IMG/VR virus record: IMGVR_UViG_3300020172_003019
Location: 1 to 33,363 of that record
Reading direction: 5' to 3' (one strand)
Source of the DNA: a virus
DNA length: 33,363 nucleotides
The notes beneath the pieces were generated by a model. The model was not told the DNA's origin. It was given only the letters and a program-made list of their open reading frames with translations, and ran no database searches. Of the stretch, positions 1 to 14,631 are shown piece after piece (positions within the stretch are counted from its first letter, which is position 1; every line of letters begins with the position of its first letter). Made by a program: the position numbers and the translations under genes.

Positions 1-105
1 AGTTTGAAAGTATTGGAATTCTATAACAGTGAGACAATCTATGTATCCAATAGATCATTAAAGTCCATAAGAAAAAATAAAAAAGACCTTCTAAAATTAT
101 CATGA
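1..105 (+). CDS. 3' end of an upstream gene (partial)
   Basis: Frame 1 is open from the window edge to a TGA at 103-105, giving 34 codons that end in a Lys/Arg-rich tail (residues ...SLKSIRKNKKDLLKLS). The reading frame runs in the same direction as the next gene and stops just before a probable promoter region, as expected for the end of a gene whose body lies outside the window. The fragment is too short to assign a function. The alternative is that it is simply a chance open stretch in AT-rich DNA. Confidence 0.45.
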   Translation, partial: SLKVLEFYNSETIYVSNRSLKSIRKNKKDLLKLS

Positions 106-132
106 TAATATTTATACCCACGCAGTAATGCT

Positions 133-138
133 TAAATA
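133..138 (+). promoter_or_regulatory. T4-late-like promoter box (TAAATA)
   Basis: TTAAATATT lies 8 nt upstream of the ATG at 147, with no Shine-Dalgarno between. The same TAAATA box stands at the same close distance from other starts in this window (13035, 15352, 18756 and, on the minus strand, 20277). T4-type late promoters (TATAAATA) are read by a gp55-like sigma, with the transcript starting about 6 nt after the box. Assignment is by motif and position only. Confidence 0.4.
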
Positions 139-146
139 TTTGTCCT

Positions 147-1328
147 ATGGATCATCTCAAATATCCCAAACTTCTTTCAAAATATGGTTGCTGGATTGTC
201 AATGGCCGAGGGTTTCTTAGAAAATTCGAAGCCTTTAAATATGCCTCAACTTTGAAGACCGATGAAATTTTCTTTTACTATCATAATCATATCTGGGAAA
301 ATTTTGATAGATCTCTGTTAGGAAAAATTCCTTTACCAGATCTTTACAAACAACGAGCCCAACAACTGAGAGATCGATATTCGCATTTAGTTTTACACTT
401 CAGCGGAGGATCGGACAGTTACAATATACTACATACTTTTTTAAAACATAAAATAAAATTAGACGAAATAGTAGTTAAATGGCCTAAAATTTTATCCGAC
501 AAAAAATTTTATACACCTAATGTCAACGACACTTCTGCTAGAAATGCTCTAAGCGAATGGGACTATGCCATCGAGCCTGTTTTAAAAAGGATATCAAACT
601 CTAATCCAGAGATCAAGATTACCATAGTTGATTATGCAGAGAACCTCATGTCTAAAAAAATCATAGGAACTATGGATAAAAAATTAGATCACGATAATTA
701 TTTCTATTCTAATTATACTCCGGCAGTCTTTTTTATGTCTGCAAATATAGATAAATTCGACGCTAGATATAAACCAGAAAATACTGCTCACATTTTCGGA
801 ATAGAAAAACCAGTTCTATCAGAAAATTCCGATGGAATATATTTTCATTTTTTAGATCATGCTATGGATATGTTGATCGTAAATCCAGAGTTAGGAACTA
901 AAGAACCGTTTTATTGGACTGCAGATTTTCCTATCCTACCTATGGAACAGGCATATCAAACTGCTTTAAATATCGCCGTTGACAAAAAATTTAAAAATTG
1001 TCTTATCAATAAAGATGATCAAAATTCAGCATTGAGAGTAAATCGACTTTTAAAATTGCAGAATAAACTTTTCAAGGATATTCTGTATCGAGATTCTTGG
1101 AACCCCTCAACTTTCCAAGTAGGAAAACCAAATGTGGATCGCAGTGATTGGTATTATTGGATGTATGAAATGTCTGATTTCGCAGAGGCTAGAGATGCCT
1201 ATAGCTCAACAGTTAAAAGTATTCAAAGCGATATAGACACTTCTTTGCTTCTAGACAAAACAAATTACAATGCAGGACTAAGAAAATTAAAAACTAAAGG
1301 ATTTAAGATTCTAGATTTCGTTCAATAA
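147..1328 (+). CDS. PP-loop ATPase protein, asparagine synthase-like
   Basis: A 393-residue protein with a clear PP-loop (N-type ATP pyrophosphatase) signature, HFSGGSDSYN, at residues 84-93. This loop binds ATP in asparagine synthetase C-domains, QueC, TilS and relatives, which adenylate a substrate before amide or thio transfer. No N-terminal glutaminase domain (Cys2 with its motifs) is visible, so it is not a complete asparagine synthetase. An ammonia-using or partner-dependent enzyme, or a divergent modification enzyme, is more likely. The C-terminal 150 residues are Trp/Tyr/Lys rich and unassigned. The start has no Shine-Dalgarno but follows a TAAATA box. The enolase-superfamily gene follows after 10 bp, so the two are probably co-transcribed. 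Substrate unknown. Confidence 0.65.
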   Translation: MDHLKYPKLLSKYGCWIVNGRGFLRKFEAFKYASTLKTDEIFFYYHNHIWENFDRSLLGKIPLPDLYKQRAQQLRDRYSHLVLHFSGGSDSYNILHTFLKHKIKLDEIVVKWPKILSDKKFYTPNVNDTSARNALSEWDYAIEPVLKRISNSNPEIKITIVDYAENLMSKKIIGTMDKKLDHDNYFYSNYTPAVFFMSANIDKFDARYKPENTAHIFGIEKPVLSENSDGIYFHFLDHAMDMLIVNPELGTKEPFYWTADFPILPMEQAYQTALNIAVDKKFKNCLINKDDQNSALRVNRLLKLQNKLFKDILYRDSWNPSTFQVGKPNVDRSDWYYWMYEMSDFAEARDAYSSTVKSIQSDIDTSLLLDKTNYNAGLRKLKTKGFKILDFVQ

Positions 1329-1338
1329 ACTACATTAA

Positions 1339-2385
1339 ATGTCTTTAAAAATTACCAACCTCGAAACGATTGTTTTAAAAATTCCGCTAAAGAAGCCTAT
1401 GTTTCTTTCTGGTAGGTGCATAAGTCATGCTGAAAATATAATAGTCAAAATTGAATCAGATGGACTGGTTGGTTGGGGTGAATCTGCATCAGCTCCCAGA
1501 ATGACTGGCGATACAGTTTCTGGAATGGCTGAAATCATCAATCGTTGGTTTCGAAGCGTTATCATCAATCAAGAAATTTCAGATTATAAAAAAATCATCT
1601 CTAGCATAGATAAAATGTTCTATGGCAATACTGGTGCCAAATTTGCAGTGTATTCGGCTGTACTAGATTTATATTGTAGAGCTAATAATATTTCACTACA
1701 TCAACTATTAGGAAAAAAAATCAGAAATGATCTTAAAAGTTTAAGAATATTAGCTAACGACACTATAGACAGTGATCTTAAAGAAGCTGAAGATTGTTAC
1801 CTGTCCGGTACTAGATTTTTTAAAGTCAAAATAGGCAAACACGACATCAACGATGAGATTTTACTGATACATCGTCTAAGAGAAATAATACATGATTCTA
1901 ATCTATGCGTTGATTCAAACAGCGGCATTTCTACAGAATCTTTTCAAACATTTGTTCAAGAAACTTCTAGAGATAATATAATCTATATTGAAGACTGTAA
2001 TTCTCTCGATCTGGGTATAAGTGTATGTCTAGATCAGGACATTTTTTCCTGCAAAGATATTCGCGAAATGATGAGTCTGGGCACCGGTCAAGGAGTAAAT
2101 TTAAAACTGATAAAATTCAGTGATCCCTTCAAGGTAATCGAAGCTGCAAACTTGGCAAATGATCTAGGGTTAAATGTAAACCTATCAGGAAAGATCGCAG
2201 AGACTGGAATTGCTAGTTCAGTTCTTTTGAATTGTGCGGCCGTGGTTCCAAATCTGAATTGGGGTTTAAGTACTACTAATCAATATCTACTTCAAGACAT
2301 TATCAAAAAAACAGACTCATCAAACTTCGAGCCTGTAATTGTAGATGAATATCTAGTAAAACAATTTAGGTATATCGATGTATAG
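1339..2385 (+). CDS. Enolase-superfamily protein (muconate cycloisomerase / dipeptide epimerase-like)
   Basis: A 348-residue protein with the two-domain layout of the MLE/mandelate-racemase branch of the enolase superfamily. The N-terminal capping domain covers about residues 1-120 and carries the GWGESA turn (45-50). The barrel carries the FKVKIG KxK motif (K162/K164), metal ligand D192 (VDSNSG), E218 (YIEDC), an Asp in LDQD (232-234) where most relatives have DES, and the distal lysine in VNLKLIK (K256). These enzymes abstract an alpha proton from carboxylates, in epimerisation, cycloisomerisation or dehydration. The LDQD variant of the third metal site is unusual and could affect activity. 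It follows the PP-loop gene by 10 bp and ends overlapping, tail to tail, with the 2OG oxygenase gene. Specificity cannot be read. Such enzymes are rarely reported in phages. Confidence 0.75.
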   Translation: MSLKITNLETIVLKIPLKKPMFLSGRCISHAENIIVKIESDGLVGWGESASAPRMTGDTVSGMAEIINRWFRSVIINQEISDYKKIISSIDKMFYGNTGAKFAVYSAVLDLYCRANNISLHQLLGKKIRNDLKSLRILANDTIDSDLKEAEDCYLSGTRFFKVKIGKHDINDEILLIHRLREIIHDSNLCVDSNSGISTESFQTFVQETSRDNIIYIEDCNSLDLGISVCLDQDIFSCKDIREMMSLGTGQGVNLKLIKFSDPFKVIEAANLANDLGLNVNLSGKIAETGIASSVLLNCAAVVPNLNWGLSTTNQYLLQDIIKKTDSSNFEPVIVDEYLVKQFRYIDV

Positions 2386-3139
2386 TATCTGCGGTGCAGT
2401 CTTTTAGAATTTTATCAGTCTCGTCTGTACGAACTGCTGTTATAATCATTACCACTCTAGGCTTATAACTCATATTTGCAGTACAGTGAGGAATATTTAA
2501 CGTGTCAAAAATATGTACATCACCGGCACGCCACTGTGTTAGAACAGAATTACCATAAACCATTATCTGTCCCGGTTCATAATCTTCTAAAAATATTACC
2601 ATTCTAGACATTTTATGCGGGGCTAACGGATTCCTGTGCCAAAGTTTATCCACATGCCAAGTAAACAGCTGACCTGGCATTTGTACATGGACTCTGGTTC
2701 TTAGTCTTTTAAATTTCCAATATTCACCCATTTTTTGAAGGGCAGGAATATTACACATGTCTGGCTCGGGAACCATTTGAACAAAATCATTTTTTACTCC
2801 GCTTTGTTCTAGATCGTAATCTTCTTGATCCTGGAGGGGACTCACTCCTCCCGGAAAGCCTGGATGCGCTCCTTTTTTTGATAGTTCGGTCCAACCTACT
2901 TCTTTAGATTTTTCAATCAGCCAAGGAATGATTTTTGGTATCTCTGGATCTAATTCAAATCTTCCTAACTGATGATACCAATCTCCTTCTTCTTCTTTTT
3001 TCCATTTATCAAAATGATAACTGCTGAAATTTTCTTTGATATATTCTAAATTGCTTTGATATTTTTCAGCTCCCTGATATTGAAAATCAGCAGGTAGAGA
3101 ATGATACTTAGCTCTTGATTCGTAAATTTTTGGATCCAT
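2366..3139 (-). CDS. 2OG-Fe(II) oxygenase
   Basis: A 257-residue protein with the double-stranded beta-helix signature of 2-oxoglutarate/Fe(II) dioxygenases. The iron facial triad is H162-V-D164 (FTWHVD) and H218 (NIPHC). R228 (YKPRVV), ten residues after the distal His, would bind the 2OG carboxylate. The layout resembles aspartyl/asparaginyl-hydroxylase-like and phytanoyl-type enzymes that act on proteins or small molecules. The substrate is unknown. Its ATG overlaps the stop of the 62-aa gene (TAATG), so it is translationally coupled as the last gene of the minus-strand porin-TctC operon. Its 3' end overlaps the + strand enolase-superfamily gene by 20 bp. Confidence 0.8.
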   Translation of the reverse strand: MDPKIYESRAKYHSLPADFQYQGAEKYQSNLEYIKENFSSYHFDKWKKEEEGDWYHQLGRFELDPEIPKIIPWLIEKSKEVGWTELSKKGAHPGFPGGVSPLQDQEDYDLEQSGVKNDFVQMVPEPDMCNIPALQKMGEYWKFKRLRTRVHVQMPGQLFTWHVDKLWHRNPLAPHKMSRMVIFLEDYEPGQIMVYGNSVLTQWRAGDVHIFDTLNIPHCTANMSYKPRVVMIITAVRTDETDKILKDCTADTIHRYT

Positions 3140-3327
3140 TATTTTTCCTCTGTTTCATAGGCTATAACAATGAGCCAATCCACAAAGTCTGTGTCGTCCT
3201 CATCTAATACACCATTTTTTCCATCGTAGCAGTATAGGACTTTACATCTAGGACGCTTGGCATCCAAGGGAGGTAAAACTCCCTCTTTCCACGGTCTGGT
3301 TTTCATTCCTGGGATTTCAGTCTTCAT
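3139..3327 (-). CDS. 62-aa conserved-type small protein of the porin operon
   Basis: A 62-residue soluble protein with no signal peptide or membrane segment. It has a basic, proline-containing N-terminal half (PWKEGVLPPLDAKRPRCKV) and an acidic centre (LDEDDTDFVDWL). It begins 3 bp after the TctC stop and ends overlapping the start of the 2OG oxygenase, so it sits in a translationally coupled minus-strand operon. The tight coupling supports it as a real gene. It may assist the oxygenase, but no family was recognised. Confidence 0.65.
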   Translation of the reverse strand: MKTEIPGMKTRPWKEGVLPPLDAKRPRCKVLYCYDGKNGVLDEDDTDFVDWLIVIAYETEEK

Positions 3328-3330
3328 GTA

Positions 3331-4263
3331 TTATTTAATGTCTACATTAAACTTTTTAATCATCGTACCTTGATGTTTAATCACAGAAACGATTTGATCT
3401 GCATTTTTAACATCCTTACCAAAATATGCTTTCTTGAATACTTCTTCAGTTTCTTTATCGTTCAACCATTCTTCCAATAGTTGATACCATATTCTCGAGA
3501 TTTTTTTATCCGTGTCTGGGGGTAAACCTATAAAAAATATTTCATCATGCGTCCACGATGGAATTCTAGATTTCAAATCGATCACATCAGTTGGCAATCC
3601 AGATTTGCCCGATGTCGGCATGAAACCAAAAACTACTTTAACTTTGCCCGATTCTAACCACGGCATGGCTGTGGCCAAAGGTACTAATGCCAAAGGCAAG
3701 TGTCGTCCTGCAACATCTCTGCTAGAATCTGTAGAAGTTTTGTAAGGAATCAGTAAAGGTTTAAACGTTCCGGTCCTAGAAGAAAGTTGGTGAAGATTCA
3801 AAACAGTAGCTACTGAATGCCAACCTATCTTTATATCTGGATCTGAATTCTGTAATGCGCTGATAAAATTTTCATATTTTTCATACTTACTGTCAGAAAA
3901 AGTTATCATTACTTGACCAGTACCGCCAGTAGATATTATTGGATCAATCACCTTCTTACCTAATCTCTGTTCAGCCAATAACGAGTTACTAGTCGAATTT
4001 ATCATCAACACAGAGCCATCTTTATTTGATGATATCAGTTCATTGGCAGCTAATGTGCTGTTGCCTCCGGGTTTAAAAATAGGATTTAAATTTATTCCTT
4101 TTTTCGAAAGCCACTGTGTCAGATGTCTTATCTGTACATCTGAAATTCCGCCAGGTCCGTACGGAACTATAATACTAACATCTTTTGGCAATTTGTTGGC
4201 AGTGTCTGCCTTTGTAGAAAAAGCAGACACTCCTAAAAATAAAATCAACAGCAGTTTTAACAT
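3331..4263 (-). CDS. Tripartite tricarboxylate transporter receptor (TctC/Bug family)
   Basis: A 310-residue periplasmic solute-binding protein of the TctC/Bug family. Residues 1 to about 19 form a signal peptide (KLLLILFLGVSAFS core, cleavage probably near A19). The mature protein opens with SIIVPYGPGGISDVQIR, the family signature around the ligand carboxylate-binding loop. Length is close to the family norm (about 320). Bug receptors bind dicarboxylates, tricarboxylates, amino acids or related acids and hand them to TctA/TctB permeases, and they are greatly expanded in Burkholderiales. No TctA/TctB gene is present, so it would have to work with host permeases or act as a sensor or scavenger. 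It lies 8 bp downstream of the porin gene on the same strand. A host-derived auxiliary gene is the best explanation. Confidence 0.85.
   Translation of the reverse strand: MLKLLLILFLGVSAFSTKADTANKLPKDVSIIVPYGPGGISDVQIRHLTQWLSKKGINLNPIFKPGGNSTLAANELISSNKDGSVLMINSTSNSLLAEQRLGKKVIDPIISTGGTGQVMITFSDSKYEKYENFISALQNSDPDIKIGWHSVATVLNLHQLSSRTGTFKPLLIPYKTSTDSSRDVAGRHLPLALVPLATAMPWLESGKVKVVFGFMPTSGKSGLPTDVIDLKSRIPSWTHDEIFFIGLPPDTDKKISRIWYQLLEEWLNDKETEEVFKKAYFGKDVKNADQIVSVIKHQGTMIKKFNVDIK
4201..4231. repeat. 9-bp inverted repeat inside the TctC signal-peptide coding region
   Basis: AGTGTCTGC at 4201-4209 is exactly complementary to GCAGACACT at 4223-4231, with a 13-nt spacer. In the minus-strand mRNA this folds into a 9-bp hairpin about 30 nt after the tctC start codon. 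It could slow ribosomes or limit degradation between the porin and tctC. It may also be chance. Confidence 0.4.
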
Positions 4264-4271
4264 AACATCAA

Positions 4272-5291
4272 TTAGAATGTATGGCTAATTCCTAGTCCTA
4301 ATGAACTGGTATTCAAGCCAGCAGTTGCCGGAGCAGAAGTAGCGTTGAACATAGCCATTGATGAATTGGTCTGATTATAGACTTTGGTATAGGCACCATA
4401 CAATGTAGTGCGTTTACTTAAATTTTTAGTAACTGCTAATGTAACACCGTTGCCTTTGTTGTCAGTAGTGCTGGAACCATTTGAGCTGTGCGCATATACG
4501 ACATGTGCAGCATACTGTTGCTGCAACGGTACCCTTACTGAGGTTACCCATGTCGAACTAGTCACATCAGTAGTGGTCGAATTATCACCCCTTGCATATG
4601 CGGTACCAACTGACAAAATAGAAAAATCATAGGCTAATCCTGCAGTTGTGGTCTCACGTGCTGCCACACCTACACCTTGATTTTTCTGATGGCCTACTCC
4701 TGCCTTTAGTTTGCCTACTTCATATCTTAGAGCCACTCCATTTTGATCCGCTTCGGCATCCGTGGTTGCTCCTACATTATTAGTAGCATGACCTACTATA
4801 AGTTGAAATCCTCGATAAACTGGACTGTCATATCTGACCACGTTTTTTTGATCAGTGCCCAATTCAACACTGGTACCGTTAGTTGGATGCATACCAAAGT
4901 TTCCAGATTGTGATACAAATAGATCCATCTCTCCTACCAAAGCCACATCAGTTCGTCCCATTCTAATAGATCCCACGGGAGATTTGATACCAACGTATGC
5001 GTCTCTATTAAAAATTTCATTGGTAGTTACTGTAGTAGATCCCATAGAACCTGTAGCAGGATTTAATTGACCTTCCACTTGAAAAAAGGCACTTAGTCCG
5101 CCTCCGAGGTCTTCTGTTCCTCGAAATCCCAAACGACTCGTGCTGTATTGACTGTCGGCTGCTCTAGTAAAACTAGTAGTTCCGTTATTATAAGATTGGA
5201 TACTGGTATCGATAACACCGTATACTGAAACCTGAGAGTAGGCCGTAGAAATTCCAAAAAGACATAGTAATGGTAAAAGTTTTAGTTTCAT
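4272..5291 (-). CDS. Outer-membrane porin, Burkholderiales type
   Basis: A 339-residue general porin. Residues 1 to about 19 are a signal peptide (LLPLLCLFGISTAYS) followed by QVSVYGVIDTSIQSY, the classic start of beta-proteobacterial 16-strand porins. RLGFRGTEDLGGGLSAFFQVEGQ (about 53-75) and the RDAYVGIKSPVGSIRMGR segment are family hallmarks. The chain ends in GLGISHTF, with the terminal Phe recognised by the BAM machinery. The protein looks complete and uninterrupted. A Shine-Dalgarno (AAGGAAA) precedes the ATG. A possible -10 (TATAGT, complement of 5320-5325) lies upstream, but its -35 is weak. It heads a minus-strand operon and would change outer-membrane permeability or receptor display during infection. 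The family call is firm; the role is inferred. Confidence 0.92.
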   Translation of the reverse strand: MKLKLLPLLCLFGISTAYSQVSVYGVIDTSIQSYNNGTTSFTRAADSQYSTSRLGFRGTEDLGGGLSAFFQVEGQLNPATGSMGSTTVTTNEIFNRDAYVGIKSPVGSIRMGRTDVALVGEMDLFVSQSGNFGMHPTNGTSVELGTDQKNVVRYDSPVYRGFQLIVGHATNNVGATTDAEADQNGVALRYEVGKLKAGVGHQKNQGVGVAARETTTAGLAYDFSILSVGTAYARGDNSTTTDVTSSTWVTSVRVPLQQQYAAHVVYAHSSNGSSTTDNKGNGVTLAVTKNLSKRTTLYGAYTKVYNQTNSSMAMFNATSAPATAGLNTSSLGLGISHTF

Positions 5292-5364
5292 TTGATTTCC
5301 TTAAAAATAAAATATCTATACTATATATCTAGCTAGAATTTTCCTAAAAAATTTTTTAAAATTA

Positions 5365-5393
5365 TTGCATTATGTATTTTTTTAGTATATAAT
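5365..5393 (+). promoter_or_regulatory. Sigma70-type promoter for the tRNA-like gene
   Basis: TTGCAT (5365-5370) and TATAAT (5388-5393) are separated by exactly 17 bp in AT-rich DNA. The expected start, 6-7 nt after the -10, falls on 5399-5400, the first base of the tRNA-like gene. The same TTGCAT-17-TATAAT arrangement recurs at 14513-14541. Confidence 0.75.
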
Positions 5394-5398
5394 AAGTT

Positions 5399-5509
5399 GT
5401 GGCCGTGAGCAAATTGGCAAAGCTCCCGCCGAGCCCATAGTTCGGAAAGGGGACGGGGCGCTGACATAGTTCGTAGCCTTTGTAGGTTCGAAACCTACCG
5501 GCCACACCA
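5399..5509 (+). tRNA. Aberrant tRNA-like gene with encoded CCA and oversized variable region
   Basis: A perfect 7-bp acceptor stem (GTGGCCG 5399-5405 with CGGCCAC 5499-5505) is followed by A and an encoded CCA (5507-5509). The T arm is canonical: GTAGG, loop TTCGAAA, CCTAC (5482-5498). The D arm has a short stem and the GG of the D loop, in the style of tRNA-Leu/Ser. A 5-bp stem (CCGAG 5429-5433 with TTCGG 5441-5445) closes a 7-nt loop CCCATAG, which would give anticodon CAT but with C instead of U at position 33. AAAGG (5446-5450) pairs with CCTTT (5477-5481) to form a variable arm with a 26-nt loop. Total length is 111 nt, and the D-to-anticodon linker is longer than normal. A 9-nt direct repeat (CATAGTTCG at 5436 and 5465) lies inside. 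Isotype is unclear. It could be a functional odd tRNA, an intron-bearing tRNA or a decayed one. Confidence 0.6.
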
Positions 5510-5552
5510 TTTACTACGCTAAGTATTAGACACATTTTATAAGGAAAACAAA

Positions 5553-5747
5553 ATGTCAAACACAGTAGAACAACTAAAAACTCAATTTGAAACATTTCTA
5601 GCAGAAGATGCTAAATTCACAGGTGGTAATTCAGCCGCAGGTACTCGTGCTCGTAAAGCTCTGCAAGAAGCTGCCAAACTGATCAAAGCACGCCGCAACG
5701 AAATCACAGCAGAAAAGAACGCCCGCAAAGAAGCCAAGGCCAAGTAA
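5553..5747 (+). CDS. Histone H1-like (Hc1-type) DNA-binding protein
   Basis: A 64-residue, Lys/Arg/Ala-rich helical protein. The segment GGNSAAGTRARKALQEAAKLIKARRNEI (about 24-51) matches the Hc1/histone-H1-like family pattern of a GN-AAGTR-RK-L motif followed by a basic helix. Such proteins coat and compact DNA. A phage copy could organise phage DNA or interfere with the host nucleoid. A Shine-Dalgarno (AAGGAAA) precedes the ATG. It lies 43 bp after the tRNA-like gene and is probably read from the same strong promoter. It stops 1 bp before the methyltransferase gene. Confidence 0.75.
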   Translation: MSNTVEQLKTQFETFLAEDAKFTGGNSAAGTRARKALQEAAKLIKARRNEITAEKNARKEAKAK

Positions 5748-5748
5748 T

Positions 5749-6309
5749 ATGAACTTCGATGCTTTTTCCAGCGGTCAAGTTCTCAGCAAGGTATGGTTAG
5801 CTGAGTCGCTGGAAAAAGTCGTAGAACTCAATCTGCTGGCTCAACCTAGGCAGATACTTTGCCTAGGTGGTTGGTATGGTCTAACAAACTTCATACTGCG
5901 AATTCGTAATCGAATTAAAATCAAAAATTTTCGTAGCCTAGATATTGATCCCGAAGTTGAAAAAATCGCTGATAAGATCAATAACTCTTGGGAATGGCAG
6001 GACTGGCAGTTCAAGAGTATAACTGGCGATGCCAACGACTTTCATTACACTATCGATGATTTTGACACTGTGATCAATACCAGTGTAGAACACATCGAGT
6101 CTCGAAAATGGTTTGAAAACATACCCAAAGACTGCTTGGTAGTATTGCAGAGCAACGATATGCCTCACGAAGATCACACAGAATGCCATAGCAATTTAGA
6201 CGAGTTTGTTAAAGAATTTAATCTATCTGAAACTTTCTTTACCGGAGAAAAGCTGTTTACCTATCCTGACTGGAGTTTCCGAAGATTTATGATCATAGGA
6301 ATCAAATAA
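5749..6309 (+). CDS. SAM-dependent methyltransferase (class I)
   Basis: A 186-residue Rossmann-fold methyltransferase. Motif I is QILCLGGWYG (35-44), with the acidic ribose-binding residues following in SLDIDPEVEKIADKIN (63-78). D94 in TGDAND fits motif III, and VINTSVEHIES (108-118) fits motif IV. The substrate (nucleic acid, protein or small molecule) cannot be told, because no target-recognition domain is present. It starts 1 bp after the H1-like gene stop and is followed after 1 bp by the next gene, so the three are co-translated. Confidence 0.75.
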   Translation: MNFDAFSSGQVLSKVWLAESLEKVVELNLLAQPRQILCLGGWYGLTNFILRIRNRIKIKNFRSLDIDPEVEKIADKINNSWEWQDWQFKSITGDANDFHYTIDDFDTVINTSVEHIESRKWFENIPKDCLVVLQSNDMPHEDHTECHSNLDEFVKEFNLSETFFTGEKLFTYPDWSFRRFMIIGIK

Positions 6310-6310
6310 A

Positions 6311-6781
6311 ATGGATGAAGAAAATATAGAAGACGGTAGCGGCACTGTTACTATCAATGTCAGCGATTGGTCTACGACGCAACCTTCGTATAGTGTGTCA
6401 AGTTTAAATAATTCTCTCGGTGGTATCTCTACGATATCATTGCCATCTGTAACTTACGGCTACCATCCTGGATCCACTGTGGGAGGTTATACGACCAGTT
6501 CAGGAACATCTTCGATATATTCGACCTACATTGCCAATGATTCCACAGTCAGTATTACCACTGAAGGGATTGATATGAAGCCTGGTAGTGATATCAAGAT
6601 AGGCGGCAAGAGTTTGAGCGAATCCATAGAGAAGATCGAGGAGCGGTTAGGTATACTTAAACCAAATCCAGAACTAGAAGAACGTTGGGATAAGTTAAAA
6701 GAACTGCGTAATCAATACATGGAACTAGAACGAGATCTTTTAGAAAAAGAAAAGATCATGAAGATTTTAAAAGAAACATAA
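6311..6781 (+). CDS. Phage protein with Ser/Thr/Gly-rich N-terminus and C-terminal coiled coil
   Basis: A 156-residue protein. Residues 1-95 are low-complexity and rich in Ser, Thr, Gly and Tyr. A short basic motif (GIDMKPGSDIKIGGKSL, about 86-102) leads into a heptad-patterned helix (about 105-155: ESIEKIEERLGIL, then ELEERWDKLKELRNQYMELERDL). This architecture resembles small structural or accessory proteins found near tail modules of T4-like aquatic phages. That likeness is from memory of the architecture, not a search. It sits 1 bp after the methyltransferase gene. Confidence 0.6.
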   Translation: MDEENIEDGSGTVTINVSDWSTTQPSYSVSSLNNSLGGISTISLPSVTYGYHPGSTVGGYTTSSGTSSIYSTYIANDSTVSITTEGIDMKPGSDIKIGGKSLSESIEKIEERLGILKPNPELEERWDKLKELRNQYMELERDLLEKEKIMKILKET

Positions 6782-6784
6782 CCA

Positions 6785-7339
6785 ATGATTCAAGTATTTG
6801 ATGATCTGATTCCAAAACATCTGCAGGATTATTTTGAGTTGATCACTCTAGGTCGAACTTCTGTGGATGACGAAGTTATGCATCCTATGATCGATTTTAA
6901 AGTCAAGTACGAATCAACAGCGTTAGAGGACGAAAGTAATCCTATCAGTTTTGTGCATGTCCTTAAATCAGATACACAGACCAGTTCGCATCTTGAAAAT
7001 TTTGGTCTTATACCGCAGATAGTCTGCGATCATTTTGATTGGATTCTCAAGGCAGTTATATTAGCAAGATTGTATCTGATACTGCCCTATGAAACAAAAT
7101 TAGAACATTATGCACCACACGTGGATTGCAATTTTCCTCATATGGTAGTACTATACTATCTAAACGACAGCGACGGAGATACTGTTTTTTTTGACAGCCA
7201 GGGAAATATTACCCAACGAGTTAGTCCTAAAAAAGGGAGAGTGCTGGTATTCGATGGCACACTTTATCATGGAGGAGGTATTCCTAAAAAATATCCTAGG
7301 TCTGTGGTAAACTTTGATATTATTATAAAGGAAAAATAA
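6785..7339 (+). CDS. 2OG-Fe(II) oxygenase, prolyl-4-hydroxylase-like
   Basis: A 184-residue dioxygenase with the prolyl 4-hydroxylase-type core. The iron ligands are H112 and D114 (APHVD) plus H162 (LYHGG), and R172 (PRSVVNFDI) binds 2OG ten residues later. The strand VVLYYLNDSDGDTVFFDS (121-138) is typical of P4H-like enzymes. Phages commonly carry one or more such enzymes, with protein or nucleic-acid targets largely unknown. Its stop overlaps the thyX start (TAATG). It is only distantly similar to the oxygenase at 2366-3139, so the two are not recent duplicates. Confidence 0.85.
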   Translation: MIQVFDDLIPKHLQDYFELITLGRTSVDDEVMHPMIDFKVKYESTALEDESNPISFVHVLKSDTQTSSHLENFGLIPQIVCDHFDWILKAVILARLYLILPYETKLEHYAPHVDCNFPHMVVLYYLNDSDGDTVFFDSQGNITQRVSPKKGRVLVFDGTLYHGGGIPKKYPRSVVNFDIIIKEK

Positions 7340-8007
7340 TGAATGTACGTTTGGTATCCTATTCACAACCAACATCAGAATTTGCAGATCTGGGCATCGC
7401 AGATGCGCAGGAACTCATTGCGTATTGCGCCCGTGTCAGCAATCCCGCAAACCAATTTAACACCGAGACATCAGACAAACTCATCCGATACCTGGTCCGA
7501 CACCAACACTGGAGCCCACTCGAAATGGTCTCAGCCTGCGTTGAAATCGAAACTACCAGAGACATCGCCCGACAGATCCTGCGACACAGAAGTTTCAGTT
7601 TCCAAGAGTTCAGTCAGCGATATGCTGACCCTACTCAAGACCTCTCGTTTGTGGTTAGAGAAGCACGACTTCAAGACCCAAAAAACAGACAGAACTCAGT
7701 CGAAACGGATGATCAACGCCTACAACGAGATTGGGAATATCAGCAACAGCAGGTCATTGACTATGCAAGAAGTGCCTACCAATGGGCTATCGCTAAAGGC
7801 ATAGCCAAAGAACAGGCCCGAGCTGTTCTACCAGAAGGACTTATAGAAAGTCGCTTGTATATGAATGGAACACTACGCTCATGGATACACTTTATTGAGC
7901 TGCGTTCAGCTAACGGTACACAGAAAGAACACCAGCTGGTAGCGTTGGCCTGTGCCAAGGCAATTTCGGCGATATTTCCTATGGCTGATAGTCTGATCCA
8001 AAATTGA
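7339..8007 (+). CDS. thyX: Flavin-dependent thymidylate synthase ThyX
   Basis: A 222-residue protein with the diagnostic ThyX motif RHRSFSFQEFSQRY (82-95, RHR-x7-S), which binds dUMP and FAD. A second conserved block, ESRLYMNGTLRSWIHFIELR, with the QKEHQLVALAC helix, contains the substrate-activating arginine region. ThyX converts dUMP to dTMP using methylene-tetrahydrofolate and NAD(P)H, supplying thymidylate for phage replication. Length and motifs are complete. The start overlaps the stop of the oxygenase, with AAAGGAAAAA as ribosome-binding site. Confidence 0.96.
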   Translation: MNVRLVSYSQPTSEFADLGIADAQELIAYCARVSNPANQFNTETSDKLIRYLVRHQHWSPLEMVSACVEIETTRDIARQILRHRSFSFQEFSQRYADPTQDLSFVVREARLQDPKNRQNSVETDDQRLQRDWEYQQQQVIDYARSAYQWAIAKGIAKEQARAVLPEGLIESRLYMNGTLRSWIHFIELRSANGTQKEHQLVALACAKAISAIFPMADSLIQN

Positions 8008-8013
8008 GGGGTC

Positions 8014-8042
8014 TTGACAGGTTTTCTAAAAGATCGTATAAT
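8014..8042 (+). promoter_or_regulatory. Consensus sigma70 promoter TTGACA-17-TATAAT
   Basis: TTGACA (8014-8019) and TATAAT (8037-8042) match the sigma70 consensus perfectly with the optimal 17-bp spacing, 7 bp after thyX ends. The predicted start near 8049 leaves about a 30-nt leader carrying GAAGGAATT before the ATG at 8080. It probably drives the block of unknown genes from 8080 onward early in infection. Confidence 0.88.
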
Positions 8043-8079
8043 TAAAGTGTTCGACTACAGAGTCTGAGAAGGAATTATA

Positions 8080-8895
8080 ATGAGAGATTATTGGACATGC
8101 TCTCCATTTGCCGATTGGATCCGAGGTACTACTAAAATAAAGTGCGGTACTGGAAAAGAATGGGCAGAGTGGGAAAAGGCTGCTAAAGCCAAATATCCGA
8201 TCCGTTGGTGGATCGCTGAAGAAGGTTTGGATAAAATTCAAAATGTTTGGTGCTGGATTCCAGAAAGGTTAAACGATATACGCTACTATATCAACAATCG
8301 TTGGGTTACCCGTAGTCATGCTCTTACAGCCCATCCTCGGGACATTGCTCCCGGCCAATGGCATGATGTGGGAAATCGTTTTCTTCCCTGCCTTTTTAAT
8401 GAACTTGTGGAGTTTGTCGAGATAGAACAGGCATGGCATTACTGTGTCTGGAGCGATGAAGATAAGAAAAAATATAGTTACCCGTGGTGGCGCAGATGGT
8501 ATCGCAATTGGCGTTGTCCTGAAGCAGGCATTGCTTATCTAGAATGGGCAATGACTCTAACCAACGAAGAGTTTTTGGAAGATGGTGAGAAGCATCTGGC
8601 TGAGCCTACCTATCAGGCCAAGGCTGCTAGAGAAATACTAGAACTATATCGTTGGTGGAAAGATGTTTATCCAAAACGTCCAGACGTTCATGATGCCAGC
8701 GGATGGACATCCTACTGCAATCTACGTCGTGAAAAAGGTTATCATCTCCTCGATATGGAAGATAAAACCGCAGAAGAAGCCGAAATGTGCAAGACTGCTC
8801 TTGACAAGAGCCGTGAGTTGGAAGCACAATACGAACAAGAAGATGAAGAAATGATGATTCGTTTAATCAAAGTACGTCAGAGCCTCTGGACATAA
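8080..8895 (+). CDS. Tryptophan-rich protein of unknown function
   Basis: A 271-residue soluble protein very rich in Trp and Tyr: KYPIRWWIAEE (48-58), YPWWRRWYRNWRCPEAG and ELYRWWKDVYP. It ends in an acidic helix (about 225-262) full of Glu and Asp. No signal peptide, membrane segment or catalytic motif was recognised. It is the first gene behind the consensus promoter at 8014-8042 and has a good Shine-Dalgarno (AAGGA), so strong early expression is likely. No function is assigned. Confidence 0.7.
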   Translation: MRDYWTCSPFADWIRGTTKIKCGTGKEWAEWEKAAKAKYPIRWWIAEEGLDKIQNVWCWIPERLNDIRYYINNRWVTRSHALTAHPRDIAPGQWHDVGNRFLPCLFNELVEFVEIEQAWHYCVWSDEDKKKYSYPWWRRWYRNWRCPEAGIAYLEWAMTLTNEEFLEDGEKHLAEPTYQAKAAREILELYRWWKDVYPKRPDVHDASGWTSYCNLRREKGYHLLDMEDKTAEEAEMCKTALDKSRELEAQYEQEDEEMMIRLIKVRQSLWT

Positions 8896-8897
8896 TC

Positions 8898-9092
8898 GTG
8901 ACTCCATTTAGACACTGGATACATCATCTTTGGGTCGAGAACTGTGAAGAGCGGCTGCTGTATCACGATGGTGATAGGCTCACTGAACGAGAATATTTTC
9001 AAAAGTTTAAATGGTGGTTACGAAGAGAATACAGACATCAAATAATAAAAGAAAGAGACGAAAATGAACGCCGAAAAAAATACAAATACTGA
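8898..9092 (+). CDS. Small basic Trp/Arg-rich protein
   Basis: A 64-residue protein from a GTG start placed 2 bp after the previous stop. It is rich in Arg, Trp, Glu and Lys (FRHWIHHLWVENCEERL, KFKWWLRREYRHQ) with a highly charged C-terminal helix. It overlaps the next ATG by 29 bp. Position in a tightly packed operon is the main support. An internal start or a non-coding stretch cannot be excluded. Confidence 0.5.
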   Translation: MTPFRHWIHHLWVENCEERLLYHDGDRLTEREYFQKFKWWLRREYRHQIIKERDENERRKKYKY

Positions 9093-9309
9093 TTTAGATA
9101 ATCTCTATCAAGATTATTGGGTCATACATTCTTCTATGATTGACAAAGGACACTCACCTATTGAGATCGCAGCCATTCTTGTCGCACAATCTATGAGCAT
9201 TTATAAAACAGTGTTAGACGACAGCGAATATAATAAGATGATTGACAGTATTTCTAATAGCCGAGATAAAGTAAAAGAATTAAAACCAGAACAGGGACAT
9301 TACCATTGA
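9064..9309 (+). CDS. 81-aa helical protein of unknown function
   Basis: An 81-residue acidic, predicted all-helical protein. It has a hydrophobic central helix (SPIEIAAILVAQSMSIYKTVL, about 32-52) that looks like a packing or dimerisation helix rather than a membrane span. It starts inside the end of the preceding gene (AAAGAGACGAAAATG gives a purine-rich ribosome site), and its TGA overlaps a TTG start of the next gene. Family not recognised. Confidence 0.65.
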   Translation: MNAEKNTNTDLDNLYQDYWVIHSSMIDKGHSPIEIAAILVAQSMSIYKTVLDDSEYNKMIDSISNSRDKVKELKPEQGHYH

Positions 9310-9773
9310 AAGTAGAAACTCCAGCAGAAGGCATCATGAAGACCGGCGAATACGGTGATTCAAAGTTTTATAAAGTAGTCTGCGGTTGCGGTCAACCCGA
9401 CCACGACATCGACTTTGAAGTTGAAGCAGCCGACACCGGAGTAAATGTCAATGCCTACGTCATAGTTAAATCTAATTATTGGTCAGAATCAGTAAAAAAA
9501 CGCTACGACATCGATACTATCTGGGTGCAGGAATGGGATTGGTTTTGGAAAGATCTGTTCAATGGGTTTGTTCGTCGTGTTAAAATGACCTGGGAGATAT
9601 GGACTCGAGGGTACGTCAGAACTGAAACCACTATCACTATGTCCGAACAACAGGCATTGAATTATTCAGAGACCATTAAATCAGCTATCAATGATGTAAA
9701 AACATTTCGAAGTAAAAGTAATTCAAACCAAAAGGCAACATCTAAAATTGCAAACGAAGGAGAATATGTATGA
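9306..9773 (+). CDS. 155-aa conserved-type phage protein with CGCG / tryptophan motifs
   Basis: A 155-residue protein. The N-terminal part has KTGEYGDSKFYKVVCGCGQPDHDIDFEVEA (about 12-41), possibly a zinc knuckle with only C29, C31 and H35 as candidate ligands. A Trp-rich block, IWVQEWDWFWKDLF, follows at about 71-84, and then amphipathic helices. Two starts are possible. TTG at 9306 overlaps the upstream stop. ATG at 9336, behind AGAAGG, would remove 10 residues. Its 3' end overlaps the next ATG by 4 bp. Function unknown. Confidence 0.65.
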   Translation: MKVETPAEGIMKTGEYGDSKFYKVVCGCGQPDHDIDFEVEAADTGVNVNAYVIVKSNYWSESVKKRYDIDTIWVQEWDWFWKDLFNGFVRRVKMTWEIWTRGYVRTETTITMSEQQALNYSETIKSAINDVKTFRSKSNSNQKATSKIANEGEYV

Positions 9774-11029
9774 CAACCACTAATCCTAAAGGCTCTTGGC
9801 CTTTTTCGCCAGGCGATGCGCCGGAGCCAACTGCCGAAGAATTAGAAGCACAGAAGATAGCCGAACAACAAAAACTCATTGAAGTTTTAAAGTTCACTCC
9901 TAGAACCTACAAGATCAGCATGTGGGGCTACGGTGGAGAAAAGGTCATGGGCACAGTAGATCCCAAGGTCTGGGACTACTGCATGGAGCACTCAGTAGAC
10001 CTGCAAGAAATAGCCTGGAGCGATGAAGACACTGTTCAAGAAGAAATGGGCTTGGATCTAGATCAGTTGCCGTTTACGCCCGGACAGTGGTATGAGACAG
10101 ATAATATGGCACACATCAATGGAGTGAGTCGAAGCGCCGGAACCATACAGATCGAAGATGAAAACGGCGATACAATTTTCCAAAAAAGTTTTGATGACTG
10201 CGATGGTGGCGATGCAAGTCCAGCCTGGAGCTGTCAAGACGAAATTTGGGTTGGCATGCGCAAAAAAGGCGAAGTAGTGTTTATTGGTAGTTCAAACGAG
10301 AAAGGCACCTTCTTTGAGGGAGAGTTTGAACTACGAGCACCGTTTGATATTGAAAAACTAGAACTCTACTATGACGAAGTAGACGGTGAAGAAATAATCA
10401 ACTCAGTGATGTACGACGGAGAAGAGATCGACAACAACGGTGGCAGTACCGACGGAAAAAGTTCGGACATGATCATGGTTCGCCTTATCGACGACGAAGG
10501 AAATTTTGAACGCTATGAGCCCGAAGAAAAGGATTGGGGACATCCTCCAATTGGTACAAGTCCGAGCGAATGGGAAAAGTCTGAAACTTTTAAGTTTAAA
10601 AAAGTCAAACCTACAATAGAAGGTTGGTATAGCTGTGTTTGGAAAAGTTACGGAACAACATATGGCACAGCATATTGGAATGGCACAGAGTTTGGTGAAT
10701 GGGAACACGGCAAGTTTAAATCAATCGCTGGGGTGGAAACCTGGAGCGGGTACAATTGGGACACAAGCTCATGGGTCAATCAACCTCCCGAGCCCGTGGA
10801 TGCTATCTGTGATAACAAAGAATGCGGTTGGGTAGGTATGCGTAGCGATATGCGTGAAGATGATGATTACAATAGTCACTGCCCAGAATGTGATGGCACA
10901 GAGTTTTCATGGGTTGACTATGATCCAAATACCAAAGAAGGTCGTGCTAATCGTAAAAAATATTGTAAAGAATGGGATCCAGAAGTGTCTATGAATAGAA
11001 TTGTCAAGTCGTATGAAGAATCCCAGTAA
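9770..11029 (+). CDS. Large acidic protein with C-terminal zinc ribbon
   Basis: A 419-residue, strongly acidic protein. Residues 1-45 are Pro/Glu/Gln-rich. The middle contains several predicted beta segments with repeated DENG/DEEG turns (for example EDENGDTIF, DDEGNFERY). A Trp/Gly/Tyr-rich module follows (about 287-335). Near the C-terminus, C347-x4-C352 and C371-x2-C374 form a probable zinc ribbon. The ATG has an excellent Shine-Dalgarno (AAGGAGA). The last 17 bp overlap the next gene. A zinc ribbon in an acidic protein could mean a nucleic-acid mimic or a transcription-interfering factor, but this is speculation. Confidence 0.65.
   Translation: MTTTNPKGSWPFSPGDAPEPTAEELEAQKIAEQQKLIEVLKFTPRTYKISMWGYGGEKVMGTVDPKVWDYCMEHSVDLQEIAWSDEDTVQEEMGLDLDQLPFTPGQWYETDNMAHINGVSRSAGTIQIEDENGDTIFQKSFDDCDGGDASPAWSCQDEIWVGMRKKGEVVFIGSSNEKGTFFEGEFELRAPFDIEKLELYYDEVDGEEIINSVMYDGEEIDNNGGSTDGKSSDMIMVRLIDDEGNFERYEPEEKDWGHPPIGTSPSEWEKSETFKFKKVKPTIEGWYSCVWKSYGTTYGTAYWNGTEFGEWEHGKFKSIAGVETWSGYNWDTSSWVNQPPEPVDAICDNKECGWVGMRSDMREDDDYNSHCPECDGTEFSWVDYDPNTKEGRANRKKYCKEWDPEVSMNRIVKSYEESQ
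9788..9806 (+). terminator. Terminator-like hairpin in the first codons of the acidic zinc-ribbon gene
   Basis: AAAGGC (9788-9793), loop TCTTG and GCCTTT (9799-9804), followed by TT, make a 6-bp stem running into five T's. It lies only 18 nt after an ATG, so it would act as an attenuator or translational brake, not as an end-of-operon terminator. The stem is short, so confidence is low. Confidence 0.3.
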
Positions 11030-11567
11030 GAGTCCTGACCGACATAGCTTCCAAAAGGACAGCTATGTTAAACGCCAAGAAGAAGATGGTAAACTGGTCA
11101 GCAAAGCATACTTAGATATGTTTGATAACATCCTCGAACAGCACAATACAAAATTTAACGATCCCGAAACTCATAAGAACAACTTAGAATGGGATCTTCT
11201 AACTACTGATTGGATTCTAGAGAAAGTTCGTGGCGATGATTCCTACGCTCAGCATCTATATGCGTCTATGTGTAATAACGGATTCATTAAATTAGATGTG
11301 ATTCCTATCCTTAAACAACAAGAATGGTCATGTTCTTGGAGATACTCCGGCGGCATAATATCAGACATGCGACAACAAGGCGACTATATAGATTGGTATT
11401 GTTCGGGCATTCGAAATGATTATCAGGACGAAGATGCTGGAAAATTATGGGATCAGCGTAAATATGTTCCTGAAGGTTGTATCACCGACGAGATCCGGAA
11501 TGATCTCCAGCGTCTTGGCTGGGCAATAGCGCCTGGTGGAGATTGGGAAAAATTTAACGGAGACTAA
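11013..11567 (+). CDS. 184-aa protein of unknown function
   Basis: A soluble protein of 184 residues from the ATG at 11013. A TTG four codons upstream is less likely. The N-terminus is basic (KNPSKSPDRHSFQKDSYVKRQEEDGK) and the rest is acidic and Trp-containing (QQEWSCSWRYSGGIISDMRQQGDYIDWYCSGI, about 101-132). No motif was recognised. It overlaps the previous gene by 17 bp and is followed after 10 bp by the next ATG, consistent with one operon from the 8014 promoter. Confidence 0.65.
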   Translation: MKNPSKSPDRHSFQKDSYVKRQEEDGKLVSKAYLDMFDNILEQHNTKFNDPETHKNNLEWDLLTTDWILEKVRGDDSYAQHLYASMCNNGFIKLDVIPILKQQEWSCSWRYSGGIISDMRQQGDYIDWYCSGIRNDYQDEDAGKLWDQRKYVPEGCITDEIRNDLQRLGWAIAPGGDWEKFNGD

Positions 11568-11577
11568 TAACCCCAAA

Positions 11578-11793
11578 ATGAGCTGGGAACTTTACGAAGT
11601 ATGGCATAACGACGAGGGCCACGAAGAACTCGTCGACACTACTAAAAGCCTTAAAGAGGCCAAACAGTTAGCCGAAAAAACCTTAGAAGAATTAGGCGGA
11701 GAAATTTTTATACTTTTAGAAACTCGAGACGGCGATATGGATGAAGTAGAACGGTTGACCATTGATGATAATGGTGCTATAATAACATTATAA
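11578..11793 (+). CDS. 71-aa acidic alpha/beta protein
   Basis: From the ATG at 11578 the product is 71 residues: MSWELYEVWHNDEGHEELVD, then an amphipathic helix (SLKEAKQLAEKTLEELGG), then strands ending in DDNGAIITL. This beta-alpha-beta pattern is common in small phage proteins. A GTG start at 11536 inside the preceding gene would add 14 residues but is less likely. A promoter for the next gene is embedded in its last codons (11755-11783). Confidence 0.65.
   Translation: MSWELYEVWHNDEGHEELVDTTKSLKEAKQLAEKTLEELGGEIFILLETRDGDMDEVERLTIDDNGAIITL
11755..11783 (+). promoter_or_regulatory. Sigma70-type promoter TTGACC-17-TATAAT inside the preceding gene
   Basis: TTGACC (11755-11760) and TATAAT (11778-11783) are 17 bp apart. 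They lie in the last codons of the 71-aa gene and would start transcription near 11790, just before the Shine-Dalgarno of the 11816 gene. Confidence 0.65.
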
Positions 11794-11815
11794 ACTTACA
11801 CCATAGGAGCAGATG

Positions 11816-13006
11816 ATGGCCAAAGCCGCAACCAAAACTCGTGTTACTAAAAAACAAGTAGCAGAACACCGTTCCAAATCTGTTAAAGATCTGAGTCCAA
11901 AATGGGACGGACACGAAGCTTGGAATACTGATCAATTTCATCGTCATTTCCGTTTATCTATGGATTATTATCGTTTGGAATTCAATGGGCGAGACCTTAA
12001 ACCTAAGGTCATTGGTTGGATGAGCTCCAGTGGGTATACTAAGGATCAAATCACAGCATTCAAAGATACCAAAGATTTTCGCTGTAATTCTACTATGGGA
12101 TCTATCGCGGCCAATCTACTCAAAGGCATGCCTCCAATACGTACCGACTTCAATGACGGCCGAAATACCGCACAGTGGTTAGGAGAACAGATCTCCAAAA
12201 TCATCGAGGATGGCAAAAATGATGCTGAACCTGAAGTCGTAGAAGAAGACAAACCTGCAGTTCCTCAGATCACTATTCAAGATCGACTCCGCGAAGCTTC
12301 TTACAAAATGACCGAAGAAATCGAAGATACATTAGAAAACTTTAGCCAAGATCCGGAAGCATTTGATCCCAAAGCATTTAAAATCCTAAATTTGCTCAAA
12401 GGCAAGCAAGCCAAGGCTGCTCATGCTAGAATTATCCGAGATATATATCAGCGACAGCACGACGAATATCTAGAAGTACTTGAAGGAAAGTGCGATCAAC
12501 TCAAAGAAGGCTACAGCCATTTGAGCAAAGCACATATCAAAAAAATCTCGGCATTTTATAACGAAATACTTTCAGCCTGCGGTATGCTGATGCAGGAAGC
12601 CAAGATCAATAAAAAACCCCGTGCTAAAAAATCAGTTCCTGCGGAAAAACTCGTGGCTAAATTGAAATATTCCAAAACCAACGAGCCACTAAAATTAGTG
12701 TCTATCAACCCTACAGACATTATTGGTGCTAAAGAACTGTGGATTTTCAACATCAAGACCCGTAAATTAGGCAAATATGTCGCAGGAGAATTCTCTGATC
12801 TAGGAGTCAAAGGCACATCAATTACCGGGTTTGATGAGTATAAATCTGTACAAAAGACTCTGCGTAAGCCTGAAGAGCAGTTAAAAGAGTTCAAAGCGGC
12901 TGGTAAAGTACAACTTCGTAAGTTCCTTGATGACATTAAAGCAGTAGATATCAAGCTCAACGGACGTATCAACGAAGATACTATTCTGCTAAAAGTACAA
13001 TCATAG
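11816..13006 (+). CDS. 396-aa Lys-rich phage protein of unknown function
   Basis: A basic N-terminus (AKAATKTRVTKKQVAEHRSKSVKDL) is followed by a segment with WDGHEAWNTDQFHRHFRLSMDYYRLEF. Residues about 160-270 form long charged helices, probably coiled coil. The C-terminal part (about 275-396) is an alpha/beta segment (KLVSINPTDIIGAKELWIFNIKTRKLGKYVA). ATG at 11816 is preferred over 11813 because AGGAG (11805-11809) is then 6 nt away. It has its own sigma70-type promoter. The size and composition suggest a structural or DNA-associated early protein; no family is certain. Confidence 0.65.
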   Translation: MAKAATKTRVTKKQVAEHRSKSVKDLSPKWDGHEAWNTDQFHRHFRLSMDYYRLEFNGRDLKPKVIGWMSSSGYTKDQITAFKDTKDFRCNSTMGSIAANLLKGMPPIRTDFNDGRNTAQWLGEQISKIIEDGKNDAEPEVVEEDKPAVPQITIQDRLREASYKMTEEIEDTLENFSQDPEAFDPKAFKILNLLKGKQAKAAHARIIRDIYQRQHDEYLEVLEGKCDQLKEGYSHLSKAHIKKISAFYNEILSACGMLMQEAKINKKPRAKKSVPAEKLVAKLKYSKTNEPLKLVSINPTDIIGAKELWIFNIKTRKLGKYVAGEFSDLGVKGTSITGFDEYKSVQKTLRKPEEQLKEFKAAGKVQLRKFLDDIKAVDIKLNGRINEDTILLKVQS

Positions 13007-13023
13007 ATTCTGTTAGCGAGTGA

Positions 13024-13029
13024 TAAATA
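13024..13029 (+). promoter_or_regulatory. T4-late-like promoter box (GATAAATA)
   Basis: GATAAATATT with TAAATA at 13024-13029, only 5 nt before the ATG at 13035. It agrees at six of eight bases or better with the T4 late consensus TATAAATA. The downstream gene is fibre-like, as expected for a late promoter. A transcript starting about 6 nt past the box would be leaderless. Confidence 0.55.
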
Positions 13030-13034
13030 TTGGT

Positions 13035-13910
13035 ATGAACAATGCCAATTTAGATCAATCCCTAACAGACCTCAATCAGATCATCAAAGATCTAGCTGAT
13101 GCAGCTCATCGACCTGTAGCCCAAGAAATAACACAATTTCTTGAATTTCGTGCTAAAAAAGGCACTGATAATTATGGTAAAGGCGTAATCTGGAGCGGTC
13201 AAGGATACACCAAACAGTTTGTTTACAACAGCCATCCTGATAGATTCTTCTCATCAGAAAGTATCGATCTTGATAATAAAAAAACATTTTCTATCGGCGG
13301 AGTGCCTGTTTTAAGTGAAATCGAGTTAGGCAACACTGTTACAAAAAGCAGCCTTCAGTCTGTAGGAAGACTCAGAGGATTGATCGTAGACGGTTCTGTT
13401 AGTATCAATCAGTATCTATTCTATAACGCAGCCTGTGATCGTCTGGGGCTCGGAACAGAAGCGCCTAACGCAGGATTCAGTGTCGCAGAAATGGGCATAG
13501 AAGTAATGCTAGGTACCACTGGCAATATGCAGGGAATGGTAGGTACTTTTGCTTCTACAGACTTTAATATAGTCACAGACAACACGCCTAGAATCACTGT
13601 CTCTGCCAGCGGTAATATACAATTAGGAAATCTCAATAGAAATCCTGTTCAAGTATCTATCAACGGAAAACTTGCCGTGGGTGTAACTAACCCTGATCCT
13701 GCTGTGGATTTACATGTGGCAGGCCCAATACGATTTGGAAATCGTCTGCATAGCTACGCTTCTGAACCTCCTAGAGAAGGCAATCATAATGTCTCCGACA
13801 TCATCTGGAATACCAATCCTACTGTAGGAAGAAACGTAGGTTGGATCTGCCTACGTGCAGGAAACCCAGGCAGCTGGTATCCATTCGGCGAGATCAAAGA
13901 AAGAGGATAA
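13035..13910 (+). CDS. Virion/tail-fibre-like structural protein
   Basis: A 291-residue protein. Residues 1-40 are helical (LDQSLTDLNQIIKDLADAAHRPVAQEITQFLEFRAKKG) and probably form an oligomerising stalk. The remainder is beta-rich with repeating short strands and Gly/Asn turns, including KLAVGVTNPDPAVDLHVAGPIRFG (about 212-235), a motif seen in fibre and tail-spike proteins. The C-terminus ends WICLRAGNPGSWYPFGEIKERG. ATG at 13035 is chosen because it follows the late-promoter box. A GTG at 13020 would place the box inside the coding region. A small fibre or baseplate-attached protein is likely. Confidence 0.6.
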   Translation: MNNANLDQSLTDLNQIIKDLADAAHRPVAQEITQFLEFRAKKGTDNYGKGVIWSGQGYTKQFVYNSHPDRFFSSESIDLDNKKTFSIGGVPVLSEIELGNTVTKSSLQSVGRLRGLIVDGSVSINQYLFYNAACDRLGLGTEAPNAGFSVAEMGIEVMLGTTGNMQGMVGTFASTDFNIVTDNTPRITVSASGNIQLGNLNRNPVQVSINGKLAVGVTNPDPAVDLHVAGPIRFGNRLHSYASEPPREGNHNVSDIIWNTNPTVGRNVGWICLRAGNPGSWYPFGEIKERG

Positions 13911-13911
13911 C

Positions 13912-14583: not shown

Positions 14584-14631
14584 ATTCTGCATGTCATCAA
14601 ACTTACTCGCTTTATGCATAGGAGGCAAGAG

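Follow-up and report, generated by a model that had tools for sequence, protein, structure and literature searches.

Genes for solute uptake are on record from several groups of viruses. Cyanophages encode the periplasmic binding protein PstS, which serves nutrient uptake (PMC6359870); contigs of oxygen-minimum-zone viruses carry glnK-amtB-ompL, in which a transporter is combined with a porin (PMC8115048); SUP05 phage contigs were reported to carry tctA along with 2-oxoglutarate (2OG)-FeII oxygenases (PMC4164917); and genes for tricarboxylate transport were found on a T4-like norB/nirK contig (PMC8115048). Here we analyse a locus in a stretch of viral DNA of 33,363 nucleotides (IMG/VR record IMGVR_UViG_3300020172_003019, positions 1 to 33,363; hereafter the window), which contains the following genes:

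4272..5291, minus strand: outer-membrane porin, Porin_4/Omp32-like, 339 amino acids (aa) (Pfam PF13609, 3.2e-41)
3331..4263, minus strand: TctC/Bug-type periplasmic solute receptor, 310 aa (profile match to Bug27, Foldseek, motif)
3139..3327, minus strand: conserved 62-aa protein without signal peptide (alignment of six phage copies)
2366..3139, minus strand: 2OG-Fe(II) oxygenase-like protein, 257 aa (motif, weak Pfam matches, low-confidence fold model)

The likeness to glnK-amtB-ompL consists in a virus-borne outer-membrane porin next to an inner-membrane uptake gene, but that system, compared here by its description, comprises an ammonium channel and a Bacteroidetes-type OmpL, whereas the window encodes a Bug carboxylate receptor, a porin of betaproteobacterial type and an oxygenase. 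The viral tctA and the norB/nirK contig likewise place genes of the tripartite tricarboxylate transporter (TTT) on viral contigs, as in relatives of the window phage, but these reports consist of a tctA domain match or a general annotation, and the excerpted texts do not describe a unit of receptor, porin and oxygenase. Nor is such a unit described in the excerpted literature on tricarboxylate transport, auxiliary metabolic genes and viruses. PstS is an ABC-type phosphate receptor for which the available part of PMC6359870 describes no porin partner, whereas the window receptor is of the Bug type and accompanied by a porin. The lake-phage paper of Kavagutti (2019) mentions neither a porin nor TTT, and the letters "TctA" in PMC6145348 merely belong to a primer sequence. 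In the BFVD database, PBP2_Bug_TTT proteins of "uncultured Caudovirales phage" have the Bug fold and 14–17% identity to the window receptor. An earlier note on this DNA had regarded such a locus as no standard phage cargo, which holds for cultured phages but is too broad otherwise, as viral glnK-amtB-ompL, viral tctA and the PBP2_Bug_TTT phage proteins are already on record; viral porin-plus-transporter cargo thus has precedent (amtB-ompL; viral tctA). The explanation we favour, as fairly probable, is that the T4-like phage uses the present cargo to let the infected cell take up a carboxylated solute, with the outer pore and the receptor serving the TctAB of the host.

Phage residence and origin of the locus

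All four open reading frames (ORFs) are intact and co-directional. The porin and receptor genes are separated by 8 bp and the receptor and 62-aa genes by 3 bp, and the stop of the 62-aa gene overlaps the start of the oxygenase gene. ORF inspection in this respect bore out the positions, intactness, coupling and porin–receptor gap given in the earlier note. The ratio of non-synonymous to synonymous substitution rates (dN/dS) indicates that each gene of the set is under purifying selection, and the locus is therefore more than a chance arrangement.

The earlier note had raised doubts about two junctions (5291–5399 and 2385). Both are crossed by an independent IMG/VR contig (3300032226_000905, here L001/G001; 86,275 bp), which forms one block of 98% identity and the same gene order with window positions 1–15288. 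G001 encodes a T4-type DNA polymerase (phrog_262, 2e-198) and clamp loader (phrog_168, 1.7e-77), and the window a tail-fibre-like protein of 2537 aa. Based on the collinear block and these genes, the phage that harbours the cargo is T4-like, and both junctions are genuine; a chimeric assembly is ruled out by the collinear contig.

Bacterial relatives of the two envelope proteins are remote. Among 399 Burkholderiales genomes, the best matches had E-values of 2e-34 (porin) and 9e-21 (receptor), and the identity of bacterial porins was about 29% in two examples. In quick trees the phage porins formed one clade (support 99 in the Shimodaira–Hasegawa-like approximate likelihood ratio test, SH-aLRT), as did five phage receptors (96), on long branches. 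Since their bacterial relatives are so far off, neither gene is a recent pick-up from a host, and within the genomes sampled a recent host origin is ruled out by the distances and the phage-only clades; if the genes were captured from hosts, the capture was old. The database searches and trees for which the earlier note had called thus revealed phage relatives of both genes and not recently decayed host sequence. The porin and Bug families make a Gram-negative, betaproteobacterial host likely, and the source was presumably freshwater. The oxygenase was not found in the 399 Burkholderiales genomes, a weak negative without a positive control among the genomes. Most viral contigs are fragments, and absences from the contig collections carry little weight because the scans used short exact patterns.

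Conservation of the cargo in related phages

The porin matches solved Omp32 over its full length (residues 19–339, 1.5e-21; its best solved match), and it has a barrel-wide Porin_4 match, a signal peptide-like N-terminus and a C-terminal Phe. With Omp32 of Delftia acidovorans and other Porin_4 porins it thus shares full-length homology and the terminal Phe; it is only distantly related to them. Besides the window, G001, G002 and G003 encode the porin, which is 90% identical on the amino acid level in G002 and G003 (dN/dS 0.10).

For the receptor, searches with a profile of the phage copies gave a match to the solved Bug27 (7e-10). A structure model (predicted local distance difference test, pLDDT, of 74) shows the two-domain Bug fold, with Foldseek matches to 2dvz (2.7e-17) and Bug27 (3.0e-17) at a template modelling score of about 0.65, and further matches to TphC, BugD and MatC. 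The first loop of Bug proteins has the signature P-F-x-A-G-G-x-x-D, of which P, G, G and D are very conserved (PMC5812351); it reads PYGPGGISD in the window receptor (residues 34–42), with Y and P at the F and A positions. Fold, signature loop and profile match are thus shared with Bug27, TphC, MatC and BugD, but the receptor belongs to a deep phage clade of its own and is only 15–20% identical to these proteins in structural alignments. Its identity is 61% to the copy in G003, about 51–56% to those in L022/L023 and G407, and 35% to that in G406, with a dN/dS of 0.16. The usual ligands of the family are carboxylates (PMC5812351).

The oxygenase is probable, but not proven, to be a 2OG-Fe(II) enzyme. 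Its HxD...H...R motif (H162-x-D164, H218, R228) is invariant in six homologues; searches against Pfam gave nothing at 0.001 and weak matches to Asp_Arg_Hydrox and 2OG-FeII_Oxy_3 at 0.05–0.09. The model, of low confidence (mean pLDDT 59), matches double-stranded beta-helix proteins, namely cupins and 2OG enzymes including AspH and proline hydroxylases. Profile searches of the PDB with the oxygenase and with the 62-aa protein returned no match. Across the phage copies the oxygenase is 57–97% identical. Scans detected the oxygenase on seven contigs and the 62-aa protein on precisely these seven, and the 62-aa gene always lies directly upstream of the oxygenase gene. Receptor, 62-aa protein and oxygenase are adjacent in that order in the window, G001, G003, G407 and L022/L023; in L050/G406, where nearly all surrounding genes are otherwise unrelated, the order is 62-aa protein, oxygenase, receptor, and in L052/G408 the 62-aa–oxygenase pair is separated by 2.6 kb, which include a small barrel, from a Bug receptor of a different, classical type. 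Because of this adjacency and the identical set of seven contigs, the three proteins look like a functional unit. Other 2OG-oxygenase-like genes are also present in these phages; one lies at window positions 6785–7339 (Pfam 2OG-FeII_Oxy_3) and also matches a PHROG labelled "DNA endonuclease V" (7.8e-25), a label that may be wrong.

The receptor phages L022/L023, G406, G407 and G408 lack the porin and instead carry a protein of 183–187 aa, in L022/L023 and G407 near the same ThyX gene. Its signal-like N-terminus and terminal Phe suggest a small outer-membrane barrel; a PDB profile search revealed no solved relative. In contigs L126 and L131, members of this family are likewise found close to Bug receptors, though different ones. 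Receptor-bearing phages thus seem usually to carry some protein of outer-membrane type, although which one and how close to the receptor varies. Records of cultured phages contained no relative of the window-type receptor, no oxygenase and no small barrel; matches to TctA, Bug or porin in these records were unannotated fecal contigs or bacterial-looking records and were not counted. An AhpC/AhpD-type peroxidase pair lies beside the small barrel or a Bug receptor in L052 (6754–7799), L126 (6919–9136) and L135 (12699–13744), with Pfam support for L135 and by resemblance for the other two.

Genes for the membrane subunits of the transporter occur in relatives of the window phage. In G003, a half-size TctB of 66 aa precedes a full TctA (Pfam 1e-134), and the contig also encodes a second, divergent receptor; G002 contains the start of the same TctA. 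A profile scan detected TctA on 46 viral contigs, some of which may be host DNA; four of the eight tested (315,778, 50,842, 142,045 and 168,158 bp) carry a T4-type DNA polymerase (E < 1e-190). A full TctA is encoded on the contigs of 315,778, 142,045 and 168,158 bp, the first of which also encodes a half-size TctB, AhpC, AhpD and a Bug receptor. In the L166/L169 lineage, a porin 28% identical to that of the window lies about 2.7 kb from full-size TctB and TctA genes; the 127-kb contig G643 of this lineage contains the porin, TctB, TctA and two tandem TctC genes. The best bacterial TctA was 52–53% identical (300 genomes), and a wider phylum sample contained no closer relative of the receptor or TctA than those in the Burkholderiales. 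The short phage TctB proteins of 66 aa (L003, 15270–15470) and 61 aa (L135, 7828–8010) correspond to the N-terminal half of TctB only, each encoded directly before a full-length TctA; L166 has a full TctB. Contig L101 carries a tmRNA-like gene and eight tRNA genes (9671–10178), as well as an FAD-monooxygenase-like gene, a Bug receptor and a VOC-like cluster.

Proposed function and alternative explanations

For the import of a carboxylated solute the following sequence of events can be envisaged. The porin would add a diffusion path across the outer membrane, and the Bug receptor, presumably exported to the periplasm, would there bind the acid between its two domains by means of the P-Y-x-P-G-G-x-x-D loop and pass it to inner-membrane TctA/TctB, which would be supplied by the host here and is phage-encoded in relatives. 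Docking to host TctAB is plausible because it is common for Bug receptors to have no TctAB of their own, such receptors being termed orphans (PMC5812351). The 62-aa protein and the oxygenase, co-inherited with the receptor, are most likely cytoplasmic and may act on the imported compound or on something dependent on it. Uptake of an organic acid, as suggested in the earlier note, is the best reading since relatives carry TctA/TctB themselves. The companion idea of the oxygenase as consumer of imported 2OG was not borne out: every 2OG oxygenase consumes 2OG, and the conserved feature is that the present gene stays linked to those for the receptor and the 62-aa protein. More tentatively, one may regard the locus as a version, reduced to pore, receptor and oxygenase, of an exchangeable uptake kit of T4-like phages. 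Such a kit would install a complete import route for organic acids in the envelope, made up of a barrel in the outer membrane, a Bug receptor, a shortened TctB together with TctA and an acid-processing oxygenase in the cytoplasm, and would have been assembled independently in several lineages.

Several observations weigh against the import of a solute by this locus. TctA was found neither in the window nor in the 86-kb G001, both of which are fragments, so that a complete tripartite transporter is not present in either. The window receptor scores below the curated cut-off of Pfam PF03401 (6e-5; 23.1 versus 27 bits), a score threshold and not a biological feature, with the orthologue in L023 reaching 30.2 bits, and it is far from every bacterial Bug protein found. 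For these two reasons its ligand may be unusual. The Bug family is huge in Betaproteobacteria, and most of its members have no assigned ligand. Furthermore, 12 kb separate porin and receptor in G003, no Bug gene is seen within the examined stretch of several contigs with a barrel, and the porin may work independently of the receptor. Of the pairing proposed in the earlier note, the intact phage cargo with phage relatives stands, but the adjacency is not fixed, with the small barrel replacing the porin elsewhere.

This separability of porin and receptor is also what speaks for a role of the porin mainly in surface exchange, by which it would replace or mask host porins and block superinfection, while the receptor cassette would be a separate entity that is adjacent by chance in this branch. 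Outer-membrane barrels commonly serve as phage receptors, which counts for such a role, and the Lc porin of phage PA-2 is said to replace or mask host porins and to block superinfection. We nevertheless consider this explanation unlikely, as unrelated phages with a porin of only 28% identity also combine a barrel with TTT genes, and this recurrence is the main argument for uptake. In addition, the 34 differences between the window and G003 porins are scattered and not clustered in particular stretches and the dN/dS is low, although neither is a strong test.

The receptor might instead be a signalling or scavenging protein, since some Bug proteins may be sensors and not transporters, with the oxygenase and the 62-aa protein as the effective part that, for example, hydroxylates a host protein or amino acid. 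The linkage of these three genes is the most conserved one, the oxygenase shows the highest conservation of the three (97% identity between window and G003, compared to 61% for the receptor), its Foldseek matches include AspH and proline hydroxylases, and a signalling role has been suggested for over-represented receptors (PMC5812351). However, transport is favoured by the TctA/TctB genes of several related or analogous phages, and the oxygenase model is of low confidence, which renders this possibility rather improbable. That the genes are recently captured from a host or joined by chimeric assembly, and functionless in the phage, is hardly credible in view of the 98% collinear independent contig, the phage-only clades on long branches, the distant bacterial porins and receptors and the purifying selection, even though both protein families are typical of Betaproteobacteria and the turnover of cargo islands is rapid in such phages.

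Neighbouring elements and biological implications

Two further features border the locus:

1339..2385, plus strand: mandelate racemase/muconate cycloisomerase-type enzyme, convergent neighbour (Pfam MR_MLE_N 1.2e-14, MR_MLE_C 6.7e-13)
5317..5329, minus strand: A/T-rich element GATATATAGTATA upstream of the porin, candidate promoter, largely kept in four porin phages

The racemase-type gene overlaps the oxygenase gene by 20 bp and occupies the same place in G001, G003 and G407. Approximate matches to the GATATATAGTATA-type motif are no more frequent in the window than expected by chance. A histone H1-like Hc1 protein (5553–5747; Pfam 1.5e-14) is kept in the porin-bearing relatives, and between its gene and the porin lies a tRNA-like element (5400–5510, plus strand) that is conserved in six phages. 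The latter consists of a T-arm (GTAGGTTCGAAACCTAC), acceptor-like ends (TGTGGTCG/CGACCACA), an anticodon-like loop (CCCATAG) and a long extra region; it was not reported by ARAGORN or Rfam, and an Rfam search of window positions 1–9000 gave no match. Proteins of about 300–400 aa with SGGxDS PP-loop-like motifs are encoded at window positions 147–1328 and by many genes in L001, L003 and L023; they have no Pfam match and are multiplied in the cargo islands of these phages. A DAHP/KDO-8-phosphate-synthase-like enzyme followed by a glycosyltransferase (15352–16978) may represent surface-sugar cargo.

These phages probably help a dying host to take in some organic acid. If this holds true, they would remodel the host envelope in two of its layers and thereby make the infected cell import a particular organic acid, the carbon-side equivalent of the phosphate uptake that PstS provides for cyanophages. 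The receptor is a testable molecule from which the solute could be read directly, and a phage-selected member of the Bug family with a dedicated adjacent enzyme could show which solute limits phage production.

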